Assembly: GCA_035573895.1 (NCBI GenBank) | Contig: DATLZR010000029.1 | Coordinates: 1-63,324, forward strand | Origin: Blastocatellia bacterium | Lineage (GTDB): Bacteria > Acidobacteriota > Blastocatellia > HR10 | DNA: 63,324 nucleotides | Direction: 5' to 3' | In this document: positions 3,079 through 50,897 of the stretch, piece after piece | Layout of the letters: every line of letters starts with the position of its first letter | Position numbering within the stretch: the stretch's first letter is position 1 | Program-made: the position numbers and the translations under genes | The notes under the pieces: model-generated | The model's input: only the letters and a program-made list of their open reading frames with translations | Told to the model about the DNA's origin: nothing | The model's database searches: none

Positions 3079-4788
3079 ATGATCGCATGGTGGTGGCCAC
3101 GACGAGAGTCATTTTTCACGCAATCCGCCGCCGCGGTGCTCGTGGCGGTGATGATTCTCCCGGGACCGGTGATCGGACAGAAGCGGCTGGAAAAATTCGT
3201 CAACGATAAACATCGGGTCTCGCTCTATTATTCCCCCGATGTGTGGAATTTCCAGCTCCAGAGTAGTCCGCGCAGCGATCTCGCCGTCTTCACGGCGAAG
3301 GGCGATCCCGAGGCCGTGGCTGTGCTCAACATGTTCGATCGGGTTCCGGGCTTCACGCTCACCCCACGTCAGCTCTACGAGATGGACAAAGCCTCGCTTC
3401 AAAGCATCTTCGGCGGCATGGAGATCCTCGATGAGCGCATGCTCACCCTCGGAGGAGCCAGCGCTCATCTGGTCGTCTTTGACGGCAAAGAGAAGCGCGT
3501 TATTCGGTACACCATCGTCCATCAGGGCTACGTGTACCTGCTGGGATATTTTGCTCCCAAGGAGAGACATGCGACTTATCTGAGCGATTTCAAAACGATG
3601 GTGGATACCTTCGCCATTGATGGGCTGACGACTCGCGCTCCCGTTCCCCCGATTGATCCCGCGGTGAGCGCACCCCCAGCCCCCTCGATGGCGCTGGAGA
3701 TTTCCACCCGCCCGCGAAAAGTTTTCCTCGAGCAAATCGGCGACAGTGTGACCTGGCATTATCATCTGGTCGTCAAGAATCCGACATCGGTGGAGGTCGA
3801 ACTCCAGGGAGCCTTGCTCAAACTCATGAGTGGGACGCGGGTGGTCGAGGACGTGAAACTCGATGCGGAGATGCTCAGGCAATCGGTTCGGACGGAAACG
3901 ACGCGTATTCCTCCGGGGGGAGAAATCGTTTTGCTTAATAATGCCGAGCGCCGCCCGGCCAGCATGCGCATTGACCGCGTGGAATATGCCCTGCAGTTTC
4001 GTCTAGCGGGGGATCGCCTCTACCAGCAGGTGATTTCCATTCCGCTGCTCTCCTATCGTCAGAAGACCTCCCTCATGTTGCCCTTCAATGGAACCTGGCG
4101 CGTCGTTCAGGGACACGACATCTTTGAGGGTCACCGCCAGGCCGCCGACGGGCAAGCGTTCGCCTACGATTTCGTCTATGAAGTGGAGGGGCGCGACCGA
4201 CGACCGACCTCGTCCTCATCTCGCAAGCCCGCTCTGGAAGATTTTTATGCCTATGGCCGGAAGGTTCGGGCTCCCGCCGATGGGCGTGTTGTCCGGGCCG
4301 TTGATGGCATAGAGGATGGTCCGCCCACGCTCACCCGTCCGCCCTTTGTCACGCCGCCAGCAAATAATCCCTATAGAATCCTCGGCAATTATGTTGTGCT
4401 TGATCACGGCAACGGCGAGTACAGCCTGCTGGCTCATCTGAAAAAGGGGTCGCTGACGTTCAAGGTGGGCGATCTGGTCAAAAAGGGGCAGATTCTCGGC
4501 GAGTGCGGCAATTCGGGAAACTCCACCCAGCCGCATATCCATTATCAACTGATGGATGGGCCGGATCATTTCAAGAGTCTCGGCTTGCCGGTGAGATTTT
4601 CTCGCTATCGGTCCCGACTGAACGAGAGAGAAGTGGAGGTGGCTGTTGGCACTCCGGTCGTGAGGGAACTGGTGGAGAATCTCGTCCCGCCAACTCCGCC
4701 CAAGCCGTCCCCGCGTCTGCGAAAGGCTCCACGCACGAAGGCCTCCGCACGTTCCGTTCCCTCGCGCCGACGAACGCAGCGACGATGA
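3079..4788 (+). CDS. Exported M23-family peptidase (LysM-free, long N-terminal region)
   Basis: A 569-residue protein with an N-terminal signal sequence ending near VIGQK. Residues ~30-190 are a lipoprotein/PsbP-like beta region and ~200-320 another beta-rich domain. The C-terminal ~150 residues are an M23/LytM peptidase fold: the HLKKG histidine near 453 and the PHIHY motif with H486 and H488 supply zinc and catalytic histidines. The first metal-binding motif is atypical; FAYDF probably supplies the aspartate, with the histidine in GHRQA further upstream than usual. The tail is Pro/Arg-rich. Expected to cut peptidoglycan cross-links in the periplasm, or to act as a non-catalytic activator if the first ligand is lost. 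The gene stands alone. Confidence 0.85.
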   Translation: MIAWWWPRRESFFTQSAAAVLVAVMILPGPVIGQKRLEKFVNDKHRVSLYYSPDVWNFQLQSSPRSDLAVFTAKGDPEAVAVLNMFDRVPGFTLTPRQLYEMDKASLQSIFGGMEILDERMLTLGGASAHLVVFDGKEKRVIRYTIVHQGYVYLLGYFAPKERHATYLSDFKTMVDTFAIDGLTTRAPVPPIDPAVSAPPAPSMALEISTRPRKVFLEQIGDSVTWHYHLVVKNPTSVEVELQGALLKLMSGTRVVEDVKLDAEMLRQSVRTETTRIPPGGEIVLLNNAERRPASMRIDRVEYALQFRLAGDRLYQQVISIPLLSYRQKTSLMLPFNGTWRVVQGHDIFEGHRQAADGQAFAYDFVYEVEGRDRRPTSSSSRKPALEDFYAYGRKVRAPADGRVVRAVDGIEDGPPTLTRPPFVTPPANNPYRILGNYVVLDHGNGEYSLLAHLKKGSLTFKVGDLVKKGQILGECGNSGNSTQPHIHYQLMDGPDHFKSLGLPVRFSRYRSRLNEREVEVAVGTPVVRELVENLVPPTPPKPSPRLRKAPRTKASARSVPSRRRTQRR

Positions 4789-4818
4789 GACTTTGACCGG
4801 GGAGGGCGGCCTCTCCTG

Positions 4819-4845
4819 TTGCCCTCGCGGGAGGTGGTGTAGAAT
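4819..4845 (+). promoter_or_regulatory. Predicted promoter, TTGCCC-15-TAGAAT
   Basis: A TTGCCC at 4819-4824 and a TAGAAT at 4840-4845 lie upstream of the methyltransferase/reductase gene. The 15-nt spacer is short, so the -35 assignment is weak, but the same TAGAAT box recurs before several other genes here. Confidence 0.45.
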
Positions 4846-4888
4846 AAGGCCGCTTTTCACGGCAGACAACCGGAGAGGGAGATGCGCG

Positions 4889-6757
4889 ATGGCCAGTGCG
4901 TTTTTGGATGTTCTGGAAAAAGAGGTGATGCTCGCCGACGGGGCGATGGGGACGATGCTGCTGGCGCGGGGCATTGATGTCAAAGCCCTCATGGAGCAAA
5001 ATCTCACCAACCCCGATCTCATCCGGAGCATCCACCTCGACTACATTCGGGCGGGAGCGCGACTGATCGAAACGAACACGTTCCTGGCGAATCGGCTGAG
5101 GCTGGCCGAATACGGATTGGAGCACGATCTGGAAGCGATCAATCGGGCGGGCGTGCGCATCGCCCGCGAGGCGGTGGCAGAAAGCGGCGAGCGAGTCTTT
5201 GTTGCCGGTTCGGTGGGACCGCTTGGCGCGCTCGTCAAACCCTACGGCAATCTCAGTCTGACTGATCTGGCCGCCGCCTACACGGAGCAGATGGCGATTC
5301 TCGTTGACGAAGGCGTGGACGTTCTCATTATCGAGACGCATCCCAGCCTGCTGGAGGCACTGGAAGCCGTTCGGGCCGCCAAAACCGTCTCGCCGACGAC
5401 GCCGATCATCGCCCAGATGACGTTTCTCGAAGATGGTCGGTCGAAATTCGGCGACGATCTGCGTCGCTCACTGGAGGCCCTGGCGGCTGCCGATGCCGAT
5501 GTCGTGGGCGTCAATTGCAGCGGGCCGCAGATGACCTATGACATCCTCTATGAGTTCCTCTCCACGACCGATCTTCGCGTCTCGGTGATGCCTAATGCCG
5601 GATTGCCCCAGTTCATCGGTGGACGCACGATCTATTTGTCCTCTCCCGAGTATCTGCGGGAATATGCCCGTCGCTTCGTTGAAGCGGGAGCCAATATTGT
5701 CGGCGGCTGCTGCGGCACCACCCCCGAACATATTCGGGCGATGGCGACCGTTGTTCAGAATCAGGTTCCCCGCCGCCGTCGCGTCCGTTCGAGTGTGACC
5801 GTCGTCGCCGAAGCGACGGGTATGGTCGAACCGGAAATGCAACGGCTTCAAACGCCCTTTCGGGAGAAACTCGGCAAACAGCTCGTCGTCACCGTCGAGG
5901 TGAATCCGCCCAGGGGATTGACCTTGGGTCCGCTGCTTGATGCCGTGCAGGCGCTCACGCGGCTCGGCGTGGATGCCTTCAGTGTGACGGATCATCAACT
6001 CGGTGGCATCCGATTATCGAGTCTGGCGCTGGCTCATCTCCTTCAAGGACGCACGGGACGGGAAGTCATCCTCCAGTATGCCTGCCGCGATCGCACTCTG
6101 GCGACCATTCATTCGGACCTGCTGGGCGCGGCGGCGCTCGGTATCCGAAACATTCTCGCCCTGACGGGGGAGGCCCCAAGCGGGGGCGAACTGCCGCGTC
6201 TGCCCGCCGCGCATGAGGTGAATGCGACGGGCCTGGTGAAGATCCTCGACAGCTTCAATCATGGATTTACCATGACGGGAGCAGCCATCGGCCCGGCAAC
6301 GGATTTTCTGATCGGCGTCGCGGTCAATCCGGCCGCCGACGATCTGGAGGCTGAAATGGAGCGGCTTCATGAGCGCCTCGAAGCGGGAGCCCACTTCGCC
6401 CAGACGCAGCCGATCTATGATCTCGATCTGTGTCGGCGGTTCTTGGACCGCTGTCGCTCACTCCGCGTGCCGGTTCTCGTCACGGTGCTTCCCCTCAAGA
6501 GCTGGCGTCACGCCGAATTTCTCCATCACGAAGTGCCCGGCATCACCATTCCCGAAGCCATTCGCGATCGCATGCGTCGGGCCGAACCGGATGCTCTGGC
6601 CGAAGGACTGGCGCTCGCTGCGGAATTCGTCGAGCAGCTTCGCGCCGATGTGGCGGGCATTCACATCATGCCTCCCGGCGAGAAGGTGGAGGTCATTGCC
6701 CCTCTGGTGGAAGTCTGCTCGGGGAAATCGGTCGGGTTGTCAAGCTCGGCGAAATGA
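4889..6757 (+). CDS. Bifunctional homocysteine S-methyltransferase / 5,10-methylenetetrahydrofolate reductase
   Basis: 622 residues from ATG 4889, chosen because GGAGAGGGAG lies just upstream and the conserved domain begins at once; the open frame itself runs back to 4793. Residues ~10-300 are the pfam02574 homocysteine methyltransferase domain with the zinc cysteines in VNCSGP and GGCCGTTPEHI. Residues ~335-610 are a MetF-type FAD barrel with TVEVNPPRG, SVTDHQ, ALTGE and AQTQPIYD. The fusion resembles Bacillus YitJ. It should make methyl-THF and methylate homocysteine, closing the methyl branch of methionine synthesis in the cytoplasm. Monocistronic, facing the HEPN gene convergently with a 16-bp gap. 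Confidence 0.93.
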   Translation: MASAFLDVLEKEVMLADGAMGTMLLARGIDVKALMEQNLTNPDLIRSIHLDYIRAGARLIETNTFLANRLRLAEYGLEHDLEAINRAGVRIAREAVAESGERVFVAGSVGPLGALVKPYGNLSLTDLAAAYTEQMAILVDEGVDVLIIETHPSLLEALEAVRAAKTVSPTTPIIAQMTFLEDGRSKFGDDLRRSLEALAAADADVVGVNCSGPQMTYDILYEFLSTTDLRVSVMPNAGLPQFIGGRTIYLSSPEYLREYARRFVEAGANIVGGCCGTTPEHIRAMATVVQNQVPRRRRVRSSVTVVAEATGMVEPEMQRLQTPFREKLGKQLVVTVEVNPPRGLTLGPLLDAVQALTRLGVDAFSVTDHQLGGIRLSSLALAHLLQGRTGREVILQYACRDRTLATIHSDLLGAAALGIRNILALTGEAPSGGELPRLPAAHEVNATGLVKILDSFNHGFTMTGAAIGPATDFLIGVAVNPAADDLEAEMERLHERLEAGAHFAQTQPIYDLDLCRRFLDRCRSLRVPVLVTVLPLKSWRHAEFLHHEVPGITIPEAIRDRMRRAEPDALAEGLALAAEFVEQLRADVAGIHIMPPGEKVEVIAPLVEVCSGKSVGLSSSAK

Positions 6758-39373: not shown

Positions 39374-39778
39374 TCAAACGTACTCAGCGGGGACAATCAT
39401 CCACTCGCTCGGGGGACGATTGGGAGTATCGGGTAACCGAACTCCGCGCGCTGCCTCCCATTCCTCGGTGCGAACCATGTCAATGGCATCCCAGGGGCAG
39501 CCGTCGAGGAATGTTCCGTCGGGCCCTTTGCTCGTGCATTTGGCGCAGCCGATGCAAAGCGTTTTATCCACTTCGATGCGCCCGAAGGGAGGATGCTCTT
39601 CGTCAGGGACCCAGAACATGCACTTGTCAACCGGGCAGTATTCCACACAGGCCGGCGAACCCGCGCACCCGGTGCAGTTCTCGTTGATCACAGCCACGAG
39701 TTTGGGCTTGCGTTTGCGAAGGTCGGTGCGCCCGGATGAAATCGGCGCGCGCTTCTGAATGATGAGGGCAGTAGTCAT
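39374..39778 (-). CDS. Ferredoxin with two 4Fe-4S clusters
   Basis: 134 residues from ATG 39778 with AAGGAGGAG upstream. Cluster 1 cysteines are C35, C38, C44 and C48 (CTGCAGSPACVEYCP) and cluster 2 are C75, C78, C81 and C94 (CIGCAKC...GCP); an extra cysteine is at 53. The spacing of the first set (Cx2Cx5Cx3C) and the long Cx12C of the second are seen in ferredoxins of acidobacteria and related phyla rather than clostridial ones. A basic ~30-residue head and ~40-residue tail flank the core. Soluble electron carrier; redox partner not visible nearby. Confidence 0.92.
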   Translation of the reverse strand: MTTALIIQKRAPISSGRTDLRKRKPKLVAVINENCTGCAGSPACVEYCPVDKCMFWVPDEEHPPFGRIEVDKTLCIGCAKCTSKGPDGTFLDGCPWDAIDMVRTEEWEAARGVRLPDTPNRPPSEWMIVPAEYV

Positions 39779-39848
39779 TGAACTCTCCTCCTTGCCCGAG
39801 CCGTTACAGTGTCCTCGAATCTCATCACGACCATCGAGCGTGAATCCT

Positions 39849-39878
39849 ACTCTAGCACAGTATGTCCATACTGAGCAA
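39849..39878 (-). promoter_or_regulatory. Predicted ferredoxin promoter, TTGCTC-18-TAGAGT, overlapped by an operator-like palindrome
   Basis: On the minus strand TTGCTC (39878-39873) and TAGAGT (39854-39849) with an 18-nt spacer. The spacer contains a perfect 16-bp palindrome, CAGTATG-TC-CATACTG (39858-39873), placed where a repressor would block RNA polymerase. The regulator is unknown. Confidence 0.6.
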
Positions 39879-40180
39879 TTCCCTGCGATGCGGCGGGACA
39901 CCGTATCCATGCGCGAGGGTGATTTCTCCGGATTAAGGACGTTTCTCGCCCCACCTGGTCATGACGGAGCGCGAGCTTTCACCCGGAGCTGTGGTAGTTG
40001 CCCCATTGCGGAGGAGGCCGATGGAGCCGCGCCTCATTTCACTCCGCCTAATCTGTCATAACCAGAGAGTTGGACAAGGAGGGCACCGGACCAGCAACGG
40101 CACGCAATTTGCACATCAAACTGTGTGTCACGAGCGATAATTGGCATCTTACTCACGAGCCGCCCGCAAAAGCAGCGGCG
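39879..40180. other. ~300-bp intergenic region between divergent genes
   Basis: No gene seen. A GATAAT lies near 40135 and a TTGCAC near 40108, but the 21-nt distance does not fit a standard promoter, so the start of the rightward transcript is unassigned. Confidence 0.3.
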
Positions 40181-40591: not shown

Positions 40592-42694
40592 TCAGAATGA
40601 AACTTTCAGGCTCGTGGTAAAGAGGTTTGCGCGATAATCCTGAACTGATCGGAACCGGTCGTTGTAGCCGTAGTGCTGATAGTTCAGATTGACGCTGAGG
40701 GCGCGGTGCAGAGGAACGCTCAGCCGCGCATACGGGCGGTGGAACCGAATCGGGAGACTGCCCTCGGAGTGCACCAGGCCATACCCGACGGCGAGGCGGG
40801 CTTCTTTGTAAAGGGTGAGGTCGAGGCCCCCGTGGAAGACATGGCTGTCCTCCCGATACAGCAGCGAAGGGCGAGGAGCCCCTCCGGCGCGCACGTCTAT
40901 GAGCGCCATCCGGGCCGTCAGGTGACTCCGGGTGTAATCGGCATCCACAGCCACACGTTCGGTAGCAGCCCAGGAGAGCGAAAATCCCCCGCTACGACCG
41001 CGATTTTGATTGCGGAACGTTCGGTCCAGAGCAAGCGCCCGACTCGGCCGCGTTTGATCGGTGAGCGACCCGGAAGCCGTGATCGTCCATTTGTCGTTCG
41101 GCCGGAGGGTCAGGCGGACGCGCCCGCGCTGATAATCGCGAGGATCCACTCCGGTGAATTCCGTCAGGTATCCCCCGTTTTCATAATCGAGGGCAAGGCG
41201 GAAAAATCGCCGCACGCGGTAACTGAGTCCGGCCAGCAGCGTCTCTGTCGTTTGCTCGCTTTCGATCCGCCGTTGCCGATTGAGCGTGGGAAAATCAGGG
41301 CCGGAGATCGTGTCGAATCCCACATCGGTTTGATCGAGGAGGACGCGGCGGTGCTCCACCCGGTATCCCCCTCTCACGACGAGCGTGGGAGTCAGGAGCA
41401 CATCCCCCTCCACCTGATTCGTCACGGTGGCGAGTCGAGTCCGTCGGAAAGAGGATTCCTGTCTGCCCACGGGGACGTCGGGAAAATCACGATCCGTCAG
41501 TTGCTCGGTGAGAAATCGTGATCCCGCAATGGTGAAATGAGTCCCTCGAAAGGTAGTCGTCACAGTGAGGCGACGGGTCAGGGCAACGCGCACCGTCCCG
41601 TCAGCGACGGTCATGGGTTTGGTCGGTTGGGCGCGATGTCTCGATAGGCCATCGGCAGCGAATATACTGGTCTCCCGATTCAAAACCAGACCGGCAAACG
41701 ACTGGGCGAAGTGGTAATCGCTATCGGTATCGCTATAGGTGAGCCGCGCAGTGAAGGCAATCCGCCGCAACCGGTGCGAGGCCAGGGAGACGCGGGTGAG
41801 GGGAGCCGTCCCCCGGACAAAGTAACTGCGGAGAAAATCGGTGAGGAATAATTGCTCGAGATCGAAAATCAAATCGGGATCGTTACCCAGGCTCAGACGG
41901 CCCGGCAGGGTATTCCCCTGATCATCTTTGAACTGACGGAATCCTTGTTCCAGGCTGAGCCGAAGCGGACCCAGTCGCAGATCCACTCCCGCGCGGTAGT
42001 CGTTCACCGTGTTCTTGACCAGGCGACGGATGAGGAATTCATCTCCGCCCAGATTGACGGTGGTGAAGGCCGGGCCGAAAGCGGCATTGCGACTGTAGCT
42101 CAGATGGGCTTGAAAGCGATCGGCATCGGGGAATAACTCTAACCGGAACGAGGACATCCGACGGGTCGAATCGTAGCTGTGCTGGTCGAATAAAATTCCC
42201 CGGTCGAAAAGAGGATTGGCGAAATCGGGAATGAAGGTGAAGTAATCAATCTTCCGGTAGCGATAGTGCAGGTCGTAGACGAGGTTTTTCTTCAGGTGCA
42301 CATCCGCCGTGTTATAAGGATCACCGCCCCAGTTGTCGAGTGCTACCGAGAAGAGGTCGAACAAGCGCCCGCTGCTCTCCGGCACGGTTGCTTCCAGCGA
42401 CGAGTGAAGGAGTTTCAATCCGGTTCCCAGGTTGATGTGACTCCGGTAGACGTGCTCGTTGCCGCTCACGTCCCGCCAGCGGGGTCCAAATTCGAGCGTG
42501 TGCTTAACTGCCACACCGCGCACGGTGAGTCCTTCCTGAGCGCGTGGCCGAGGCGATGGATTCGCTCCTGGTGGGGCCGCCGGACGAACCTCTGCGACCG
42601 AGTCTTTCTCTCCCGATTGGAGTGCTCCGACGACGGGCATTCCCGTGGAGAGGAGAAAAAGCACGGCGAGCATAATGAGCCTGCATTCCCTCAT
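40592..42694 (-). CDS. Outer-membrane beta-barrel, MtrB/PioB-like
   Basis: 700 residues with a signal peptide (~1-25) and a Pro-rich linker. The remainder is long alternating amphipathic strands ending in an aromatic residue (LFTTSLKVSF), as in large outer-membrane barrels. It follows the decahaem cytochrome gene by 13 nt with an AGGGAAG RBS between them, the arrangement of MtrA-MtrB and PioA-PioB. The N-terminal CxxC of Shewanella MtrB is absent. The barrel would hold the decahaem protein across the outer membrane. The family is called mainly from context and barrel character, so a different porin cannot be excluded. Confidence 0.75.
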   Translation of the reverse strand: MRECRLIMLAVLFLLSTGMPVVGALQSGEKDSVAEVRPAAPPGANPSPRPRAQEGLTVRGVAVKHTLEFGPRWRDVSGNEHVYRSHINLGTGLKLLHSSLEATVPESSGRLFDLFSVALDNWGGDPYNTADVHLKKNLVYDLHYRYRKIDYFTFIPDFANPLFDRGILFDQHSYDSTRRMSSFRLELFPDADRFQAHLSYSRNAAFGPAFTTVNLGGDEFLIRRLVKNTVNDYRAGVDLRLGPLRLSLEQGFRQFKDDQGNTLPGRLSLGNDPDLIFDLEQLFLTDFLRSYFVRGTAPLTRVSLASHRLRRIAFTARLTYSDTDSDYHFAQSFAGLVLNRETSIFAADGLSRHRAQPTKPMTVADGTVRVALTRRLTVTTTFRGTHFTIAGSRFLTEQLTDRDFPDVPVGRQESSFRRTRLATVTNQVEGDVLLTPTLVVRGGYRVEHRRVLLDQTDVGFDTISGPDFPTLNRQRRIESEQTTETLLAGLSYRVRRFFRLALDYENGGYLTEFTGVDPRDYQRGRVRLTLRPNDKWTITASGSLTDQTRPSRALALDRTFRNQNRGRSGGFSLSWAATERVAVDADYTRSHLTARMALIDVRAGGAPRPSLLYREDSHVFHGGLDLTLYKEARLAVGYGLVHSEGSLPIRFHRPYARLSVPLHRALSVNLNYQHYGYNDRFRSVQDYRANLFTTSLKVSF

Positions 42695-42707
42695 GGCAGC
42701 TTCCCTT

Positions 42708-43721
42708 TCATCGGAGAAAGAGACGGTTCGTATTTGATCCGTGGATCATCACATGGCAGCTCGTGCAGTTTTGATACCGCGGGCTGCTCAGATCGTGAAA
42801 CCCTTGAGGCGCATCCGCCGCCGCTCCCTGGCGATCACCGTGACATTCCAGGCAAAGCAGCCGGATGTCGCTGCGAACGAGCATGCGGGGATTGATCGAA
42901 CCGTGCGGGACGTGACAGGCGAGGCACCGATCCGATCTCAACGCGATGTGCTCGAAGACGAAGGGGCCCTCCTTATCCGTATGACAGCGGAGACAAAGGG
43001 CATCCCGGCCGCCGAGCGTCTCCACGCTCTGCGTGATATTGAAAGAGGAATGTTGCTCGTGACAGTCGCGGCAGTTCATCCCTCCTTCGGGAACCTTGTG
43101 GTGAAACGGGCGGGCGAATTCCGCTCGAATCTCGCGGTGGCAATCGAAGCAGAGGCCCGGCGCCTGGTGACGAAGGATATAAGGATGCGTTACCTCCTGG
43201 TGGGGATTGTGACAATCGTTGCAGGTGACGGAATCAATTTTGTGCTGGTTTTGATGGAAGCCGCATGTCCCCGCCCGCTTCTCCTGGTGGCAGGTAATAC
43301 ACATCTCTGCGACTTCTCGTGCCGAGGCTTTTGCCGGATTGAAGATATGTCCCTGTCCCCCGGCCTGGACGTGTTGTCGGCCCGGGCCATGACACATCTC
43401 GCAACCTTTGACCGGAGGAACGTACCTTGGGCTACGTACGGTCGCAAAATGAGCCGTCCGCGAGAACCAGGTGTAAAACTGCGGGTGACACGCGCGACAG
43501 GTCTCTGCCCCCACAAAATCGGCTGCCTGGGCAGGCTGTTGCGTCTGCTGTTGGTGAGCCGGTACCTCGTCCCGGCTGTGAGAATTCGGGTGAGCCGCGA
43601 CCATGCTCGACGCTCTTGCCGGGATCGCGCTTCCCACAAAAGCATCGGCCACGGTCGCGCCGATAATGAGTGAGAGGGCAACAAGAGGAATCCAGATCAT
43701 CCAGGAGTGGTTCTGCGTCAT
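42708..43721 (-). CDS. Decahaem c-type cytochrome, MtrA/DmsE-like
   Basis: 337 residues from ATG 43721; an in-frame ATG at 43781 has a better RBS (AGGGAAG) and would add 20 residues. After a signal sequence and a Gln-rich linker there are exactly ten CxxCH sites: CRACH, CEMCH, CITCH, CNDCH, CFDCH, CRDCH, CLRCH, CLACH, CLECH and CTSCH. The even spacing, the CNDCHNPHQ phrase and the ~310-residue size match MtrA/DmsE/PioA. It would pass electrons through the outer membrane within the barrel encoded next. No outer-surface MtrC-type cytochrome or CymA is in the window, so direction of flow is open. Confidence 0.9.
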   Translation of the reverse strand: MTQNHSWMIWIPLVALSLIIGATVADAFVGSAIPARASSMVAAHPNSHSRDEVPAHQQQTQQPAQAADFVGAETCRACHPQFYTWFSRTAHFATVRSPRYVPPVKGCEMCHGPGRQHVQAGGQGHIFNPAKASAREVAEMCITCHQEKRAGTCGFHQNQHKIDSVTCNDCHNPHQEVTHPYILRHQAPGLCFDCHREIRAEFARPFHHKVPEGGMNCRDCHEQHSSFNITQSVETLGGRDALCLRCHTDKEGPFVFEHIALRSDRCLACHVPHGSINPRMLVRSDIRLLCLECHGDRQGAAADAPQGFHDLSSPRYQNCTSCHVMIHGSNTNRLFLR

Positions 43722-44771: not shown

Positions 44772-45236
44772 ATGGCGATAAATCTCAAAGTTAACGGGAG
44801 GTCGGTGACACTTGACGTTGATCCGACGATGCCCCTTCTTTACGTGCTCAGCGATTTCCTCCAGCTCAACGGACCGAAGTTCGGCTGTGGTCTCGGGCAG
44901 TGCGGGGCCTGCACGGTTTTAGTCGAAGGTGAGGCCATTCGCTCGTGCATTACGCCGGTGTCGTCCGTTGAGGGGTTCGAGATCGTGACCTTAGAGGGGC
45001 TTGGATCGCCGGATAATCCACATCCGATTCAGCGGATATTTATCGAGGAACAGGCTGTGCAGTGTGGCTTTTGCCTGAGTGGGGTCATCCTCACGGCTAA
45101 GGCGATTCTCGATCAGAACCCGCGCGCCAGCGAAGAGGATATCTCTCGGGCCATGAGCGGCGTTCTCTGCCGCTGCTGCACGCATGTTCGGATGGTGAAA
45201 GCCATTCAGCGTTACCAGAAGGAGGTGGCCGTATGA
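44772..45236 (+). CDS. (2Fe-2S) subunit of isoquinoline-1-oxidoreductase-type molybdenum hydroxylase, copy 1
   Basis: 154 residues, RBS AAGGAGGG. The N-terminal plant-type cluster uses C39, C44, C47 and C59 (FGCGLGQCGACTV). The C-terminal cluster uses C98 and C101 (CGFC) plus C133 and C135 in CRCCTHV. In the usual motif CRCGTY a glycine follows the last cysteine; here it is a cysteine (C136). This subunit passes electrons from the molybdenum cofactor to an acceptor. Its stop overlaps the start of the large subunit as ATGA. Confidence 0.92.
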   Translation: MAINLKVNGRSVTLDVDPTMPLLYVLSDFLQLNGPKFGCGLGQCGACTVLVEGEAIRSCITPVSSVEGFEIVTLEGLGSPDNPHPIQRIFIEEQAVQCGFCLSGVILTAKAILDQNPRASEEDISRAMSGVLCRCCTHVRMVKAIQRYQKEVAV

Positions 45237-47677
45237 AGAAAAGACGAGTCCGAAGGACGTATGAGCCGCTTCTGACTGCTGATGCCCAGGCCGCCCTGGA
45301 GAGGGCGGGCTTCACCCGCCGGAATTTTCTCAAGGGAGCCGGGGCCTTGATCGTTAGTTTCAGCATGGCCGGCGTTGCCGAGAAGGTCGTGGGATCGGCA
45401 GCCGGTGCCGTACAGCAACCGGCGGATCCAAGAGACCTGCTCGATTCCTGGATCGCCATCGCCGAAGATGGGCGAGTGACCGCTTACGTGGGCAAGGTGG
45501 AGCTGGGGCAGGGAATCGCGACGGCTCAAGTGCAGTTGGTTGCGGAGGAGCTTTATGTTCCCATCTCGCGCGTGACGCTGATCTACGGCGACACAGCCGT
45601 TGCGCCTGATCAAGGAGTGACGGCGGGCAGTCAATCGCATCCCACTAATTTCAATCCGCTGAATCCATCGAGTCCCGGAAATCGCAGTTTGCTGACGGCC
45701 GCCGCGTCGGCTCGTGAAGCTCTGCTGAAATTGGCCTCCGAGCGCTTGGGCGTTCCCGTCGAGCAGCTCACCATTTCCGAAGGAGTGATCAGCGTGAAGT
45801 CCGATCCCTCCAAGAGGGTGAGCTACGGCGAGTTGGTCGGCGGCAAGAAATTCAACCTTCCCGTTGATCCCAATGCCAAGCCGAAAGATCCAAAGGAATG
45901 GACCATTCGTGGAACCTCCGTTCCTCGTCTGGAGATCCCGGCGATGGTCACCGGTCAGTTCGAGTATGTTGGAACGGTGCGGGTTCCCGGCATGGTTCAC
46001 GGACGTGTCGTGCGGCCGCCGGTTGTCGGAGCGACGCTCGTCAGCATTGACAATCAAAGCGAAGTTGAACAAATGCCGGGCAACGTGAAGGTTGTCCGCA
46101 AGGGCAACTTCGTGGGCGTTGTGGCTGACACCCAATGGGCTGCCCAGAAGGCCGCGGAGGCGCTCAAGATCACCTGGAAGATGCCCGATACTCCTCTGCC
46201 TCCCTTTTCGGAGTTTTATCAGTGGCTGCGCTCGCAGCCGCTCGATAAGTTCAGCCACACCCGACCTGTTGACTCTGGCGACGTGGATCAGAAGCTGGCT
46301 AATGCTGCTAAGGTCATTCGGGCGACGTACTTTCACCCCTACCAGATGCATGCCTCAATGGGAGCTTCCGTAGCTGTCGCCGACGTGCAAGGAGATAAAG
46401 CGACGATCTGGTGCGCCAGCCAGAATGTCTACGCTCATCGGGATACGGCCGCGCGTATTCTCGGCATCCCTGCGAGCAACATTCGCGTGATCTTTCGCAC
46501 TGGCACCGGCTGCTACGGGCTCAATGGGGCGGACACGGTCGGATTCGATGCCGCGATTCTATCCCAAGCTGTGGGCAAGCCCGTGCGCGTGCAACTTTCG
46601 CGCAAAGATGAGATGGCCTGGGAGAACTATGGGCCGGCCTACGTCATCGAGCAGCGCGCCGCCGTTGATGCTCAAGGAAACATCATCGCCTGGGACCATG
46701 AGAGCTGGACGCTGAACCGGGGTGGTCGCCCCAATGCGAATAATCCGGGCAATGTTCCCACGGGCTATCTTGTCGGATTCCCCTCGCCGACGGTCACGCC
46801 GAGCGGCACAATCCCCAATCCTCCGCAAGCTTTCCCCCGAAATGGGAGCAACCACGTTCCCTCGTATGTCACCGGTCGAGGACGAGACGGGGTGGCCCGG
46901 TATCTGGGAACGGTGGAAAGTCAGCGGGTGATCGTGCACACGCTGGCGTCACCCTTCTTTACCGGACCGCTTCGGTCTCCGGCGCGATTGCAAAACACTT
47001 TCGCCCACGAATCGTTCATAGATGAAATTGCGGCCGCTGTTGGCGCTGACCCGGTGGAATTTCGTCTCCGCCACCTCAACAACGTCCCGCCGACCGAGGA
47101 GATCAGCGGTGAACGACTCAAGGCGGTTATTCGGGCGGCGGCCCAAGCTGCGGGCTGGGATCCGCGACCTTCTCCCAAGCCCGGCAACCCCCGTACCGGT
47201 GTTGTCACGGGTCGTGGAATTGCCGCCTGTCTCTACGAGGGCGACAATGGCTATTGCGCGGTCGTGGCGGAAGTCGAAGTGGATCAGGACACGGGTGTGA
47301 TTACTCCCACGAGGTTCTTCGTCGGCCATGATTGCGGCCCCATCACCAATCCCGATGGATTGCGCAATCAGATCGAAGGCGGCCTCTATCAGGGCATGAG
47401 TCGGGCTCTGGTGGAAGAAGTGAAGTGGGATAGTGAGAAGATCACCTCTGTGGACTGGATCACCTATCCTGTGATGACGTTCGGCCACAAGACTCCTGAG
47501 ATCGTGAGCGTACTCATTGACCGCCGGGACGTCGAAGCCATGGGTGCCGGTGAGACAACGATTACCGTTGTCGCTGCTGCCATTGCCAATGCTGTTTTCG
47601 ATGCCACGGGCGCTCGGCTCCGGCAGATTCCCTTCACGCCGGAACGAGTTAAGGCAGCATTGGCCGCACGTGGGTAG
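45233..47677 (+). CDS. Molybdenum cofactor-binding subunit (IorB-type), copy 1, Tat-exported
   Basis: 814 residues. A twin-arginine signal FTRRNFLKGAGALIVSFSM lies at ~27-45, later than usual, so the enzyme should be carried folded to the periplasm together with its small partner. The body has YVGKVELGQGIATAQ, VGRVVRPPV-like and APLRSPARLQN-type stretches of the aldehyde dehydrogenase/IorB family, and ends with GAGETTITVVAAAIANAVFD, whose glutamate is the catalytic base. The substrate could be an N-heterocycle or aldehyde; it is not readable from sequence. ATGA overlap with the small subunit shows coupled translation. Confidence 0.92.
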   Translation: MKKRRVRRTYEPLLTADAQAALERAGFTRRNFLKGAGALIVSFSMAGVAEKVVGSAAGAVQQPADPRDLLDSWIAIAEDGRVTAYVGKVELGQGIATAQVQLVAEELYVPISRVTLIYGDTAVAPDQGVTAGSQSHPTNFNPLNPSSPGNRSLLTAAASAREALLKLASERLGVPVEQLTISEGVISVKSDPSKRVSYGELVGGKKFNLPVDPNAKPKDPKEWTIRGTSVPRLEIPAMVTGQFEYVGTVRVPGMVHGRVVRPPVVGATLVSIDNQSEVEQMPGNVKVVRKGNFVGVVADTQWAAQKAAEALKITWKMPDTPLPPFSEFYQWLRSQPLDKFSHTRPVDSGDVDQKLANAAKVIRATYFHPYQMHASMGASVAVADVQGDKATIWCASQNVYAHRDTAARILGIPASNIRVIFRTGTGCYGLNGADTVGFDAAILSQAVGKPVRVQLSRKDEMAWENYGPAYVIEQRAAVDAQGNIIAWDHESWTLNRGGRPNANNPGNVPTGYLVGFPSPTVTPSGTIPNPPQAFPRNGSNHVPSYVTGRGRDGVARYLGTVESQRVIVHTLASPFFTGPLRSPARLQNTFAHESFIDEIAAAVGADPVEFRLRHLNNVPPTEEISGERLKAVIRAAAQAAGWDPRPSPKPGNPRTGVVTGRGIAACLYEGDNGYCAVVAEVEVDQDTGVITPTRFFVGHDCGPITNPDGLRNQIEGGLYQGMSRALVEEVKWDSEKITSVDWITYPVMTFGHKTPEIVSVLIDRRDVEAMGAGETTITVVAAAIANAVFDATGARLRQIPFTPERVKAALAARG

Positions 47678-48093
47678 TCGGTTTTCGGGGCGTGGGTCGG
47701 TAGTGCCCACGCCCGATCTCGTGACGCCAAGAGGAATGGGATGAGGGTATCTTCGCCTGATGAGACCGGTCGGGGCAGCCTGTACCGGTCTGCCGATCTT
47801 CAGCCGGTTCGTTCTCATCGCTCCAGGTGTTTCCCGTTCGGATCGAGGCGGAAGAGGAGTAATCCGCATTTTTTTGACTTGAGAAACGCGAAAAGAGCGC
47901 TGTGGTCAGTTTCAGGAGACGCCGTTCATAGAGTCTCGCGCCCCGTGACTTGGGGTCATCGGGGCGGTGGATGAAGGAGTCTGCATCAAAAGGAGCTGAC
48001 CTAAGAAAGGTCCGCAGACCTTGCGATGCGCGTCCCCTGGAGCATGGCGTGAGCTTCAGGTGGAAAACCCAAACTGAAAGGAGGCATATCAGC
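47678..48093 (+). other. Spacer between the two molybdoenzyme pairs
   Basis: 416 bp without a recognised gene. A TTGACT lies at 47874-47879, but no good -10 box follows at the right distance. An RBS (AAAGGAGG) stands at 48077-48084. The second pair may have its own promoter here that I cannot place. Confidence 0.35.
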
Positions 48094-48561
48094 ATGAGTC
48101 GCATCACCCTGAAGGTCAACGGTCGTTCGGTTACGGTGGACGTGGAGCCGGACACGCCATTGCTGTACGTGTTGCGCAATGACCTGGGATTGAACGGGCC
48201 GCGATTCGGCTGTGGTCTCGGGCAGTGCGGAGCCTGTACGGTGATCGTGGAGGGCGAAGCGATCCGATCCTGTATCACCCCCGTTGAATTCGTCGAGGGA
48301 TTCGACATCATCACGCTCGAGGGATTGGGAACGTTGGAAAATCCACATCCCATCCAGAAGGCGTTCATCGAGAACCAGGCGGCACAGTGCGGTTACTGCA
48401 TCAACGGGTTCATCATGCAGGCAAAGGCGTTTCTCGATCAGAATCCGCGGGCGAGCGACCAAGAGATCATCGCCGCGTTAGAGGGAAATCTGTGCCGTTG
48501 TGGGACCTATCTGCGAATCCTCCAGGCCGTCAAGCAATATCAACAGGAGGTGCGCCTATGA
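48094..48561 (+). CDS. (2Fe-2S) subunit of isoquinoline-1-oxidoreductase-type molybdenum hydroxylase, copy 2
   Basis: 155 residues from ATG 48094, chosen for the RBS and homology to copy 1. Both cluster motifs are canonical: CGLGQCGACTV with the fourth cysteine in RSCITP, and CGYC plus CRCGTYLRI. It is close in sequence to copy 1, so the pairs arose by tandem duplication. Its stop overlaps the next start as ATGA. It should carry electrons from molybdenum to a periplasmic acceptor such as a c-type cytochrome. Confidence 0.93.
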   Translation: MSRITLKVNGRSVTVDVEPDTPLLYVLRNDLGLNGPRFGCGLGQCGACTVIVEGEAIRSCITPVEFVEGFDIITLEGLGTLENPHPIQKAFIENQAAQCGYCINGFIMQAKAFLDQNPRASDQEIIAALEGNLCRCGTYLRILQAVKQYQQEVRL

Positions 48562-50897
48562 TGACGAGAACACTCATGCCAGAAGCTGTTGCCGACCCGA
48601 CCAGTGTCGAGGATGTCTTCGCCATCACCGGTTTTGATGAGACCGTGAAAAGGCGAGGGATGTCCCGGCGAAGTTTCCTCAAAGGCACGGGCATGCTGGT
48701 TGTTTCCTTCAGCCTTGGTCGTGCTATGAAGCTGGCGGAGTGGGGAGAGGAGGCGCTCGCCCAGGTTCCGTCCAACCAGGTTGATTCTTTCATCGCCATC
48801 GCGGCCGATGGAAGTGTCACCGCCTTTACCGGGAAGGTGGATCTTGGCACGGGGATTTCCGTCGGTTTGAGGCAGATGCTGGCGGAGGAACTCGATGTCG
48901 CTTACGAACGCATCCGTTGGATTCAAGGGGATACGGCTGTTGTCCCCGATCAAGGGGCGACTGTGGGCAGCCGATCCATTTCCGACGGAGGAGCCACAAT
49001 CCGGCGAGCCGGAGCCGCCGCCCGCCAATTCCTTCTCAATCTGGCGTCCGAACGATTGGGTGTCCCTGTGGATCAACTGGTCGTCAATGATGGCGTGGTC
49101 AGCGTCAAGTCCGATTCGAGCCGCAAGGTCACCTATGGGGAGCTTATCGGTGATCGGAAGTTCGGCCTGACAGTTCCGGCCGCCGGTCAGATCCAACTGA
49201 AGACGCCCGATCAGTTCCGGGTCATCGGCAAACCGATTCCGCGAGGAGACATCGCGGAGAGAATCTTTGGCGTTCCCTTCGTGCAGAATGTCCGCGTGCC
49301 GGGGATGGTACATGCCCGGGTCGTTCATCCTCCAGCCAGCAATGCCAAGCTTCTCAGCGTGGATGAATCGGCCGTGAGGCAAGTACCGGGCTTCATCGCG
49401 CTCGTCGTCAAAGGGGACTTCGTCGGCGTGGTTTGTGAACGGGAGGAACAGGCGATCAAAGCGGCCAAAGTCCTCAAGGAGGCCTGCCGGTGGTCAACTC
49501 CTGATCCCTCGTTCCCGCCAATGACCGACCTTTACACATGGATGAAGCAAGCGGATGCTGCGCCGAGCAATATCATTCCACCCGTCGGCGATGTGGATGC
49601 CGCTCTGGCCAGTGCTCCCCGGGTTTTCAGTCAAACCTACTACTGGCCCTTTCAAATGCATGGAGCCATGACGCCCATGTGCTCGGTCGCCGATGTCAAA
49701 GGGGACAAGGTGACCATCTGGTCGGGGACCCAGTATCCACATGGGACGCGCACGCCGGTGGCCAATTACCTGGGCATTCCTGTAGAGAATGTGCGGGTGA
49801 TCTACGCCGAAACCTCAGGGGTCTATGGCCGGGCAGTGACCGACGATTCCGTCCTTGAAGCGGTGATCCTCTCACAGGCGGTGGGTCGTCCGGTCAGACT
49901 GCAGTGGATGCGCGAAGATGAGCACGGCTGGGAACCAAAAGGTCCGGCTCACGTGATGACTGTCCGGGCAGGTACGGATGCGGCGGGTACGATCATCGCC
50001 TGGGAGTTCGAGGATCGGACGTTTCCCTGGACGATGTCCGAACCTTTAGCGGCCCGGCTTATGGGCTCGACACGTCCGGATGGGACCTTCAATAATGGGT
50101 CCGGCTGTGCCGGTCAGGAGTACGCCTTCCCCAACAAGCGGATCATCAGACGTAACCTCAGTTTTGCTGCTCTGGCCAAGTTCCAGCAGAATACGACGCT
50201 TCGGACAACGGCCTTGCGGGCCCCGGGAGATCCGGCGCGCGCCTTCGCCTGTGAGTCGTTCATTGACGAGCTGGCGGCAGCAGTCCAGGCCGATCCCATC
50301 GAATATCGGCTGCGCCATCTCAACCCGAGCGACGCTGTTCAATCACGGGTCATTGATGTGATCAAGGCAGCAGCGGAACGGAGTGGATGGCAGCCGGGAC
50401 CTTCTCCGCGGCCGGGGGTCCCACGAACGGGCGTCGTGACGGGACGGGGATTTGCCTTCGCCCGTCGGGGAACGTATGTAGCTGCTGTTGCTGACGTCGA
50501 AGTGGATCAGGACACCGGTGGAGTCCGGGTCACTCGCATCGTCATTGCCCACGACTGCGGGTTGATCATTAATCCCGATAGTGTGGTGCAACAGATCGAG
50601 GGGCAGGTCATCCAGACCGTCGGTCGAGCCCTCCGGGAAGAGGTCGTCTTTGATCAGTATCGGGTGACGAGTCTGGACTGGATCACCTATCCCGTCACGC
50701 GGTTCCCGGACGTGCCTCAAGTGGACATCGTGCTCATCAATCGGCCCGATCAATCTCCAATGGGCGTTGGTGAGCCTGCCCTCAATCCCGTCCCGGCAGC
50801 AATCGCGAATGCGATCTTCAACGCGACGGGAGCCCGGCTCCGTCAGGTGCCTTTCACGCCGGATAGGGTGAAGGCCGCCCTTGACGCTCGTCGCTGA
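48558..50897 (+). CDS. Molybdenum cofactor-binding subunit (IorB-type), copy 2, Tat-exported
   Basis: 779 residues from ATG 48558. The Tat motif MSRRSFLKGTGMLVVSFSL is at ~34-52. FTGKVDLGTGISVGLRQ, TALRAPGDPARAFACESF and the ending GVGEPALNPVPAAIANAIFN show the IorB family and the catalytic glutamate. It shares the C-terminal phrase TGARLRQ(I/V)PFTP with copy 1 but differs strongly around the substrate pocket, so the two enzymes probably act on different compounds. A strong hairpin terminator follows directly. Confidence 0.93.
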   Translation: MMTRTLMPEAVADPTSVEDVFAITGFDETVKRRGMSRRSFLKGTGMLVVSFSLGRAMKLAEWGEEALAQVPSNQVDSFIAIAADGSVTAFTGKVDLGTGISVGLRQMLAEELDVAYERIRWIQGDTAVVPDQGATVGSRSISDGGATIRRAGAAARQFLLNLASERLGVPVDQLVVNDGVVSVKSDSSRKVTYGELIGDRKFGLTVPAAGQIQLKTPDQFRVIGKPIPRGDIAERIFGVPFVQNVRVPGMVHARVVHPPASNAKLLSVDESAVRQVPGFIALVVKGDFVGVVCEREEQAIKAAKVLKEACRWSTPDPSFPPMTDLYTWMKQADAAPSNIIPPVGDVDAALASAPRVFSQTYYWPFQMHGAMTPMCSVADVKGDKVTIWSGTQYPHGTRTPVANYLGIPVENVRVIYAETSGVYGRAVTDDSVLEAVILSQAVGRPVRLQWMREDEHGWEPKGPAHVMTVRAGTDAAGTIIAWEFEDRTFPWTMSEPLAARLMGSTRPDGTFNNGSGCAGQEYAFPNKRIIRRNLSFAALAKFQQNTTLRTTALRAPGDPARAFACESFIDELAAAVQADPIEYRLRHLNPSDAVQSRVIDVIKAAAERSGWQPGPSPRPGVPRTGVVTGRGFAFARRGTYVAAVADVEVDQDTGGVRVTRIVIAHDCGLIINPDSVVQQIEGQVIQTVGRALREEVVFDQYRVTSLDWITYPVTRFPDVPQVDIVLINRPDQSPMGVGEPALNPVPAAIANAIFNATGARLRQVPFTPDRVKAALDARR

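Follow-up and report, generated by a model that had tools for sequence, protein, structure and literature searches.

A probable MtrAB-type outer-membrane electron conduit standing alone in a Blastocatellia genome that holds a second mtrAB pair and one MtrC-family gene

A decahaem cytochrome gene and a barrel gene separated by 13 nt

The window analyzed here is a stretch of 63,324 nucleotides, contig 29 of a 3.9-Mb draft genome (97% complete) from an uncultured member of the Acidobacteriota. On its minus strand, an mtrA-like gene for a decahaem c-type cytochrome of 337 aa (42708..43721, with the ATG at 43721 and the stop at 42708) is followed by an mtrB-like gene for an outer-membrane beta-barrel of 700 aa (40592..42694). 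The gap between them (42695..42707) is 13 nt long and, read directly, contains a Shine-Dalgarno-like GGGAAG stretch on the same strand. The original prediction of a ten-haem cytochrome adjacent to a large barrel was exact in its coordinates, strand, and gap. Such a short gap suggests that the decahaem and barrel genes are co-transcribed. An Rfam scan of the window gave no match, while the yield of a terminator scan was below expectation and that of a promoter scan near expectation.

The cytochrome carries, as judged by eye, a Sec-type signal peptide and is exported. It scored 219.2 bits against TIGR03508, the DmsE/MtrA family model, over residues 71 to 332, which is above the curated cut-off of 192.2 bits. 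It also aligned over nearly its full length with NF041028, the model for the GSU2203-family decahaem cytochrome, yet its 194 bits are far under the cut-off of that model (325 bits). The protein contains exactly ten CXXCH motifs, and these are invariant across 35 full-length relatives, a pattern that is not due to chance. In the same relatives, nine further His residues are invariant and two are conserved at 86%; these could act as distal haem ligands. In a phmmer search of PDB sequences, MtrA of 6R2Q came out as the best match (E 5.6e-30), and the ten haem motifs paired one-to-one with the ten of that chain. The chain carries another label in the PDB file, and we take it to be MtrA because the entry is that of the Mtr complex.

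Among the annotated genes around the pair, we saw neither an OmcA/MtrC gene nor a NapC/CymA gene. The neighbouring ferredoxin, HEAT, and AAA genes were considered as partners and set aside, as close homologues are absent beside the pairs of relatives. The ferredoxin-like gene, which is small and of the 4Fe-4S type (39374-39910), shares the strand of the barrel gene and lies about 0.7 kb downstream of it. Divergent from the mtrAB pair are two tandem pairs of molybdenum hydroxylase genes (44772-50897), assigned by xanthine-dehydrogenase-family models; each pair comprises a 2Fe-2S subunit and a large subunit with a Tat-like start.

Relationship of the barrel to MtrB

The barrel protein has a signal-peptide-like start, a C-terminal Phe, and one Cys, and it contains no CXXC. 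Curated Pfam and NCBIfam scans returned no family match for it. Against PF11854 (MtrB/PioB porin), it reached 12.4 bits (E 0.06), under the curated cut-off of 23 bits, while a paralogue on contig 6 of the same genome scored 18.4 bits and one relative 24.5 bits. Among 36 homologous barrels, 11 matched PF11854 when E values up to 1 were admitted, the best at 3.3e-6. By these scores, the window barrel appears to be a remote relative of PF11854 and not a formal member. Comparison of a profile of the 36 barrels with one Photobacterium MtrB in hhalign gave a weak match (probability 9%), and a profile of four barrels searched against PDB sequences produced chance matches only. A third barrel-like match in the genome, on contig 143 (E 0.0015, with two stops), was taken as chance.

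The AlphaFold2 model of the barrel, built from four sequences and of moderate confidence (pLDDT 59, pTM 0.53), has 26 long beta strands as counted from the model, and 26 is also the strand number reported for MtrB (PMC7198977). In a Foldseek search with this model, 6r2q_B (MtrB) ranked first among PDB entries at 5.2e-15, with the runner-up at 4.5e-10. VIA aligned the model to 6r2q_B with a Z of 18.5 over 512 residues at 3.6 Å, and the next row had a Z of 13.8 and an rmsd of 15.8 Å; identity to MtrB over the structural alignment is about 14%. For the barrel, the original prediction had looked to profile searches against MtrB/PioB: on this point the sequence is ambiguous and the structure clear.

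Gene order adds a further line of evidence. In all 36 barrels collected, a multihaem gene lies directly ahead of the barrel gene, and it encodes ten haems wherever the contig does not end within it. Because PF11854 matches 11 of the 36 family members, MtrB is the best fold, well clear of other barrels, and the partner gene is always present, we regard the window barrel as MtrB-like in its predicted fold and its partner, although it scores under the Pfam cut-off. The same three observations speak against a soluble periplasmic decahaem cytochrome that lies beside an unrelated porin and forms no conduit, a reading that can draw on the missing curated match of the window barrel when taken alone and that we consider very improbable. 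Family, fold, and conserved gene order support the MtrA/MtrB-like conduit originally predicted, and we estimate a probability of roughly 0.75 that the window pair encodes an MtrAB-type outer-membrane electron conduit.

Other electron-transfer genes and two mtrAB lineages in the order

The original prediction held that the conduit has no MtrC partner or CymA and proposed a search of the rest of the genome; this holds for the neighbourhood but not genome-wide. One OmcA/MtrC-family protein, with ten haems and a score of 512 bits, is encoded on contig 24 and is the only match to that family in the genome; its gene is set apart from the other electron-transfer genes seen there. On contig 6 lies a second decahaem-barrel pair, whose barrel is 38% and whose decahaem protein is 46% identical to those of the window pair. 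Two genes lie upstream of this contig-6 mtrAB. One encodes an 11-haem protein with a fused membrane domain that resembles cytochrome b561/formate dehydrogenase gamma, and the other a five-haem NapC/NirT-family (NapC/NrfH-like) protein, the only NapC/NirT match above cut-off in the genome. The 11-haem/cytochrome-b and pentahaem proteins look like a quinol-side entry.

Two side observations concern these loci. Nitrate-reductase-like beta and delta subunits are encoded upstream of the contig-6 mtrAB cluster (4555-6688 of locus L011, G000:C6), with no obvious large molybdenum subunit adjoining in that stretch. The OmcA/MtrC-family proteins of the order (that of contig 24, 8871-10919 of L070, and the homologues in L071, L072, and L013) have a signal-like start without a lipobox cysteine, and for this reason their surface anchoring may differ from that of the Shewanella lipoproteins.

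We compared the window genome (G000) with genomes of a sister genus (among them G003-G005) and of other families of the order (G020-G023). In the trees of both proteins, the window pair clusters with second copies in G020, G021, G022, and G023 (five members, support 100/100), while the contig-6 copy falls among the full clusters, which come from the sister genus and from G020-G023. Since the window pair and the contig-6 copy fall in separate tree groups, the order holds two mtrAB lineages, one of full clusters and one of stand-alone pairs. The stand-alone lineage is present in the window genome and in four of four genomes of other families; it was not found in the five sister-genus genomes, where there is the full cluster only. 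The branch leading to the one proteobacterial MtrA in the tree, from a Photobacterium plasmid, is very long.

The stand-alone pair has different flanking genes in the window genome, in G022, and in G020/G021; conservation is thus limited to the two genes of the pair, and neither mtrC nor napC was seen next to them in the loci examined. In G022, genes for the 11-haem protein, MtrC, the five-haem protein, MtrA, and MtrB occur together within about 11 kb (L071), and in G003-G005, the distance between mtrC and the pair is about 6 to 12 kb. One MtrC per two MtrAB pairs was counted in each of G000, G021, and G022; the MtrC of G020 is divided between two contigs, and two are present in G023. In G023 (C192, 5080-14642), an OmcA/MtrC-family gene is flanked on both sides by DmsE-family decahaem genes, of which that genome has four.

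Relation to known conduits and direction of electron flow

The window pair resembles Shewanella MtrCAB (PDB 6R2Q) in its decahaem MtrA homologue, its barrel of MtrB fold with 26 strands, and its adjacent genes with the cytochrome first. It differs in its acidobacterial host, in lacking an adjoining mtrC (the single OmcA/MtrC-family gene on contig 24 is not clustered with it), and in a barrel without the N-terminal CXXC motif known from MtrB of metal-reducing Gammaproteobacteria (PMC12175506). Its closest counterpart within the genome, the contig-6 mtrAB, is a paralogue with the same gene order that, unlike the window copy, has the 11-haem/cytochrome-b and pentahaem proteins upstream.

We propose that the MtrA-like protein, once exported, would fold into a bis-His haem wire that sits inside the MtrB-like barrel and conducts electrons, with periplasmic cytochromes at one end and the cell surface at the other. 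As the second and stand-alone MtrAB of the genome, the window pair would provide an alternative exit fed from a shared periplasmic pool; at its outer end, it may borrow the single MtrC of the genome or may stop at an exposed terminal haem. No partner gene is conserved in the stand-alone lineage, so that its gene context does not reveal donor, acceptor, or direction. Outward flow through the window conduit is nevertheless mildly favoured, since the genome encodes MtrC as well as a NapC-family protein on the quinol side.

Flow in the opposite direction, in which Fe(II), minerals, or other cells would supply electrons to periplasmic cytochromes without a surface cytochrome, seems to us rather unlikely but deserves consideration. 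MtoAB of Sideroxydans and PioAB of Rhodopseudomonas are likewise two-gene conduits without an adjoining surface multihaem protein, and inward flow is known or proposed for them (PMC12016527). MtrAB homologues of iron oxidisers without MtrC have been noted (PMC8805035), MtrAB itself is reversible (PMC12016527), and the missing mtrC and napC beside the stand-alone lineage fit the same picture. The window pair differs from the MtoAB and PioAB systems in having no adjacent mtoD or cymA and in belonging to a genome where MtrC is present together with a second mtrAB and its NapC-family gene. Against inward flow stand the MtrC and the quinol-side cytochrome of the genome, and also the search for PioC: the HiPIP model PF01355 matched one control genome but none of ten draft genomes from the order. 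Gene content alone cannot fix direction, however, and PioAB-like uptake, as proposed in the original prediction, keeps a lesser probability than outward flow.

It is improbable that the conduit, in the manner of DmsEF, delivers electrons not to a mineral but to a soluble acceptor or to an enzyme that is extracellular or on the outer surface. The decahaem protein does match the DmsE-family model, and the pair is separate from mtrC, but unlike in DmsEFAB, no DmsA/DmsB of the DMSO-reductase family adjoins it. No DMSO-reductase catalytic subunit was present among the scanned neighbours, where the molybdenum enzymes are of the xanthine-dehydrogenase family. These hydroxylases were also considered as electron donors and rejected, as they are not conserved companions: G020-G022 carry the conduit without close copies of the large subunit, whereas about 17 close relatives of it occur in G023. 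Two such hydroxylase genes also adjoin the mtrAB of the full-cluster lineage in G023 (L074, C97, 3978-9527); given those copy numbers, this adjacency is probably due to chance.

Returning to the outward-favoured conduit, the window pair joins a known kind, and the twist is the presence of two conduit lineages with one MtrC. More tentatively still than inward flow, we raise the idea that an MtrAB lineage split within this order and has permanently done without a dedicated surface cytochrome beside a complete MtrC-bearing system in the same cells, so that the two wires would have different partners or opposite directions, the one exporting electrons and the other taking them up. With two conduit lineages in five genomes of the order and exactly one MtrC in three of them, whether an MtrAB needs an MtrC of its own becomes testable.

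Porin-cytochrome conduits have been reported in Acidobacteriota for Holophaga (PMC7399161), and the Acidobacteriota matches in a survey of MtrCAB came only from the class Acidobacteriia (PMC8805035). In a limited literature search, we found no report of such conduits in Blastocatellia. Homologous conduit barrels occur in half of 162 genomes of the class, the closest named relative being listed as Blastocatellia bacterium. As most of these barrels do not reach a match to PF11854, porin searches with that model would miss them. In one case (L079, G094:C25), two decahaem-barrel pairs lie in tandem on a single contig, and their barrels are widely diverged.
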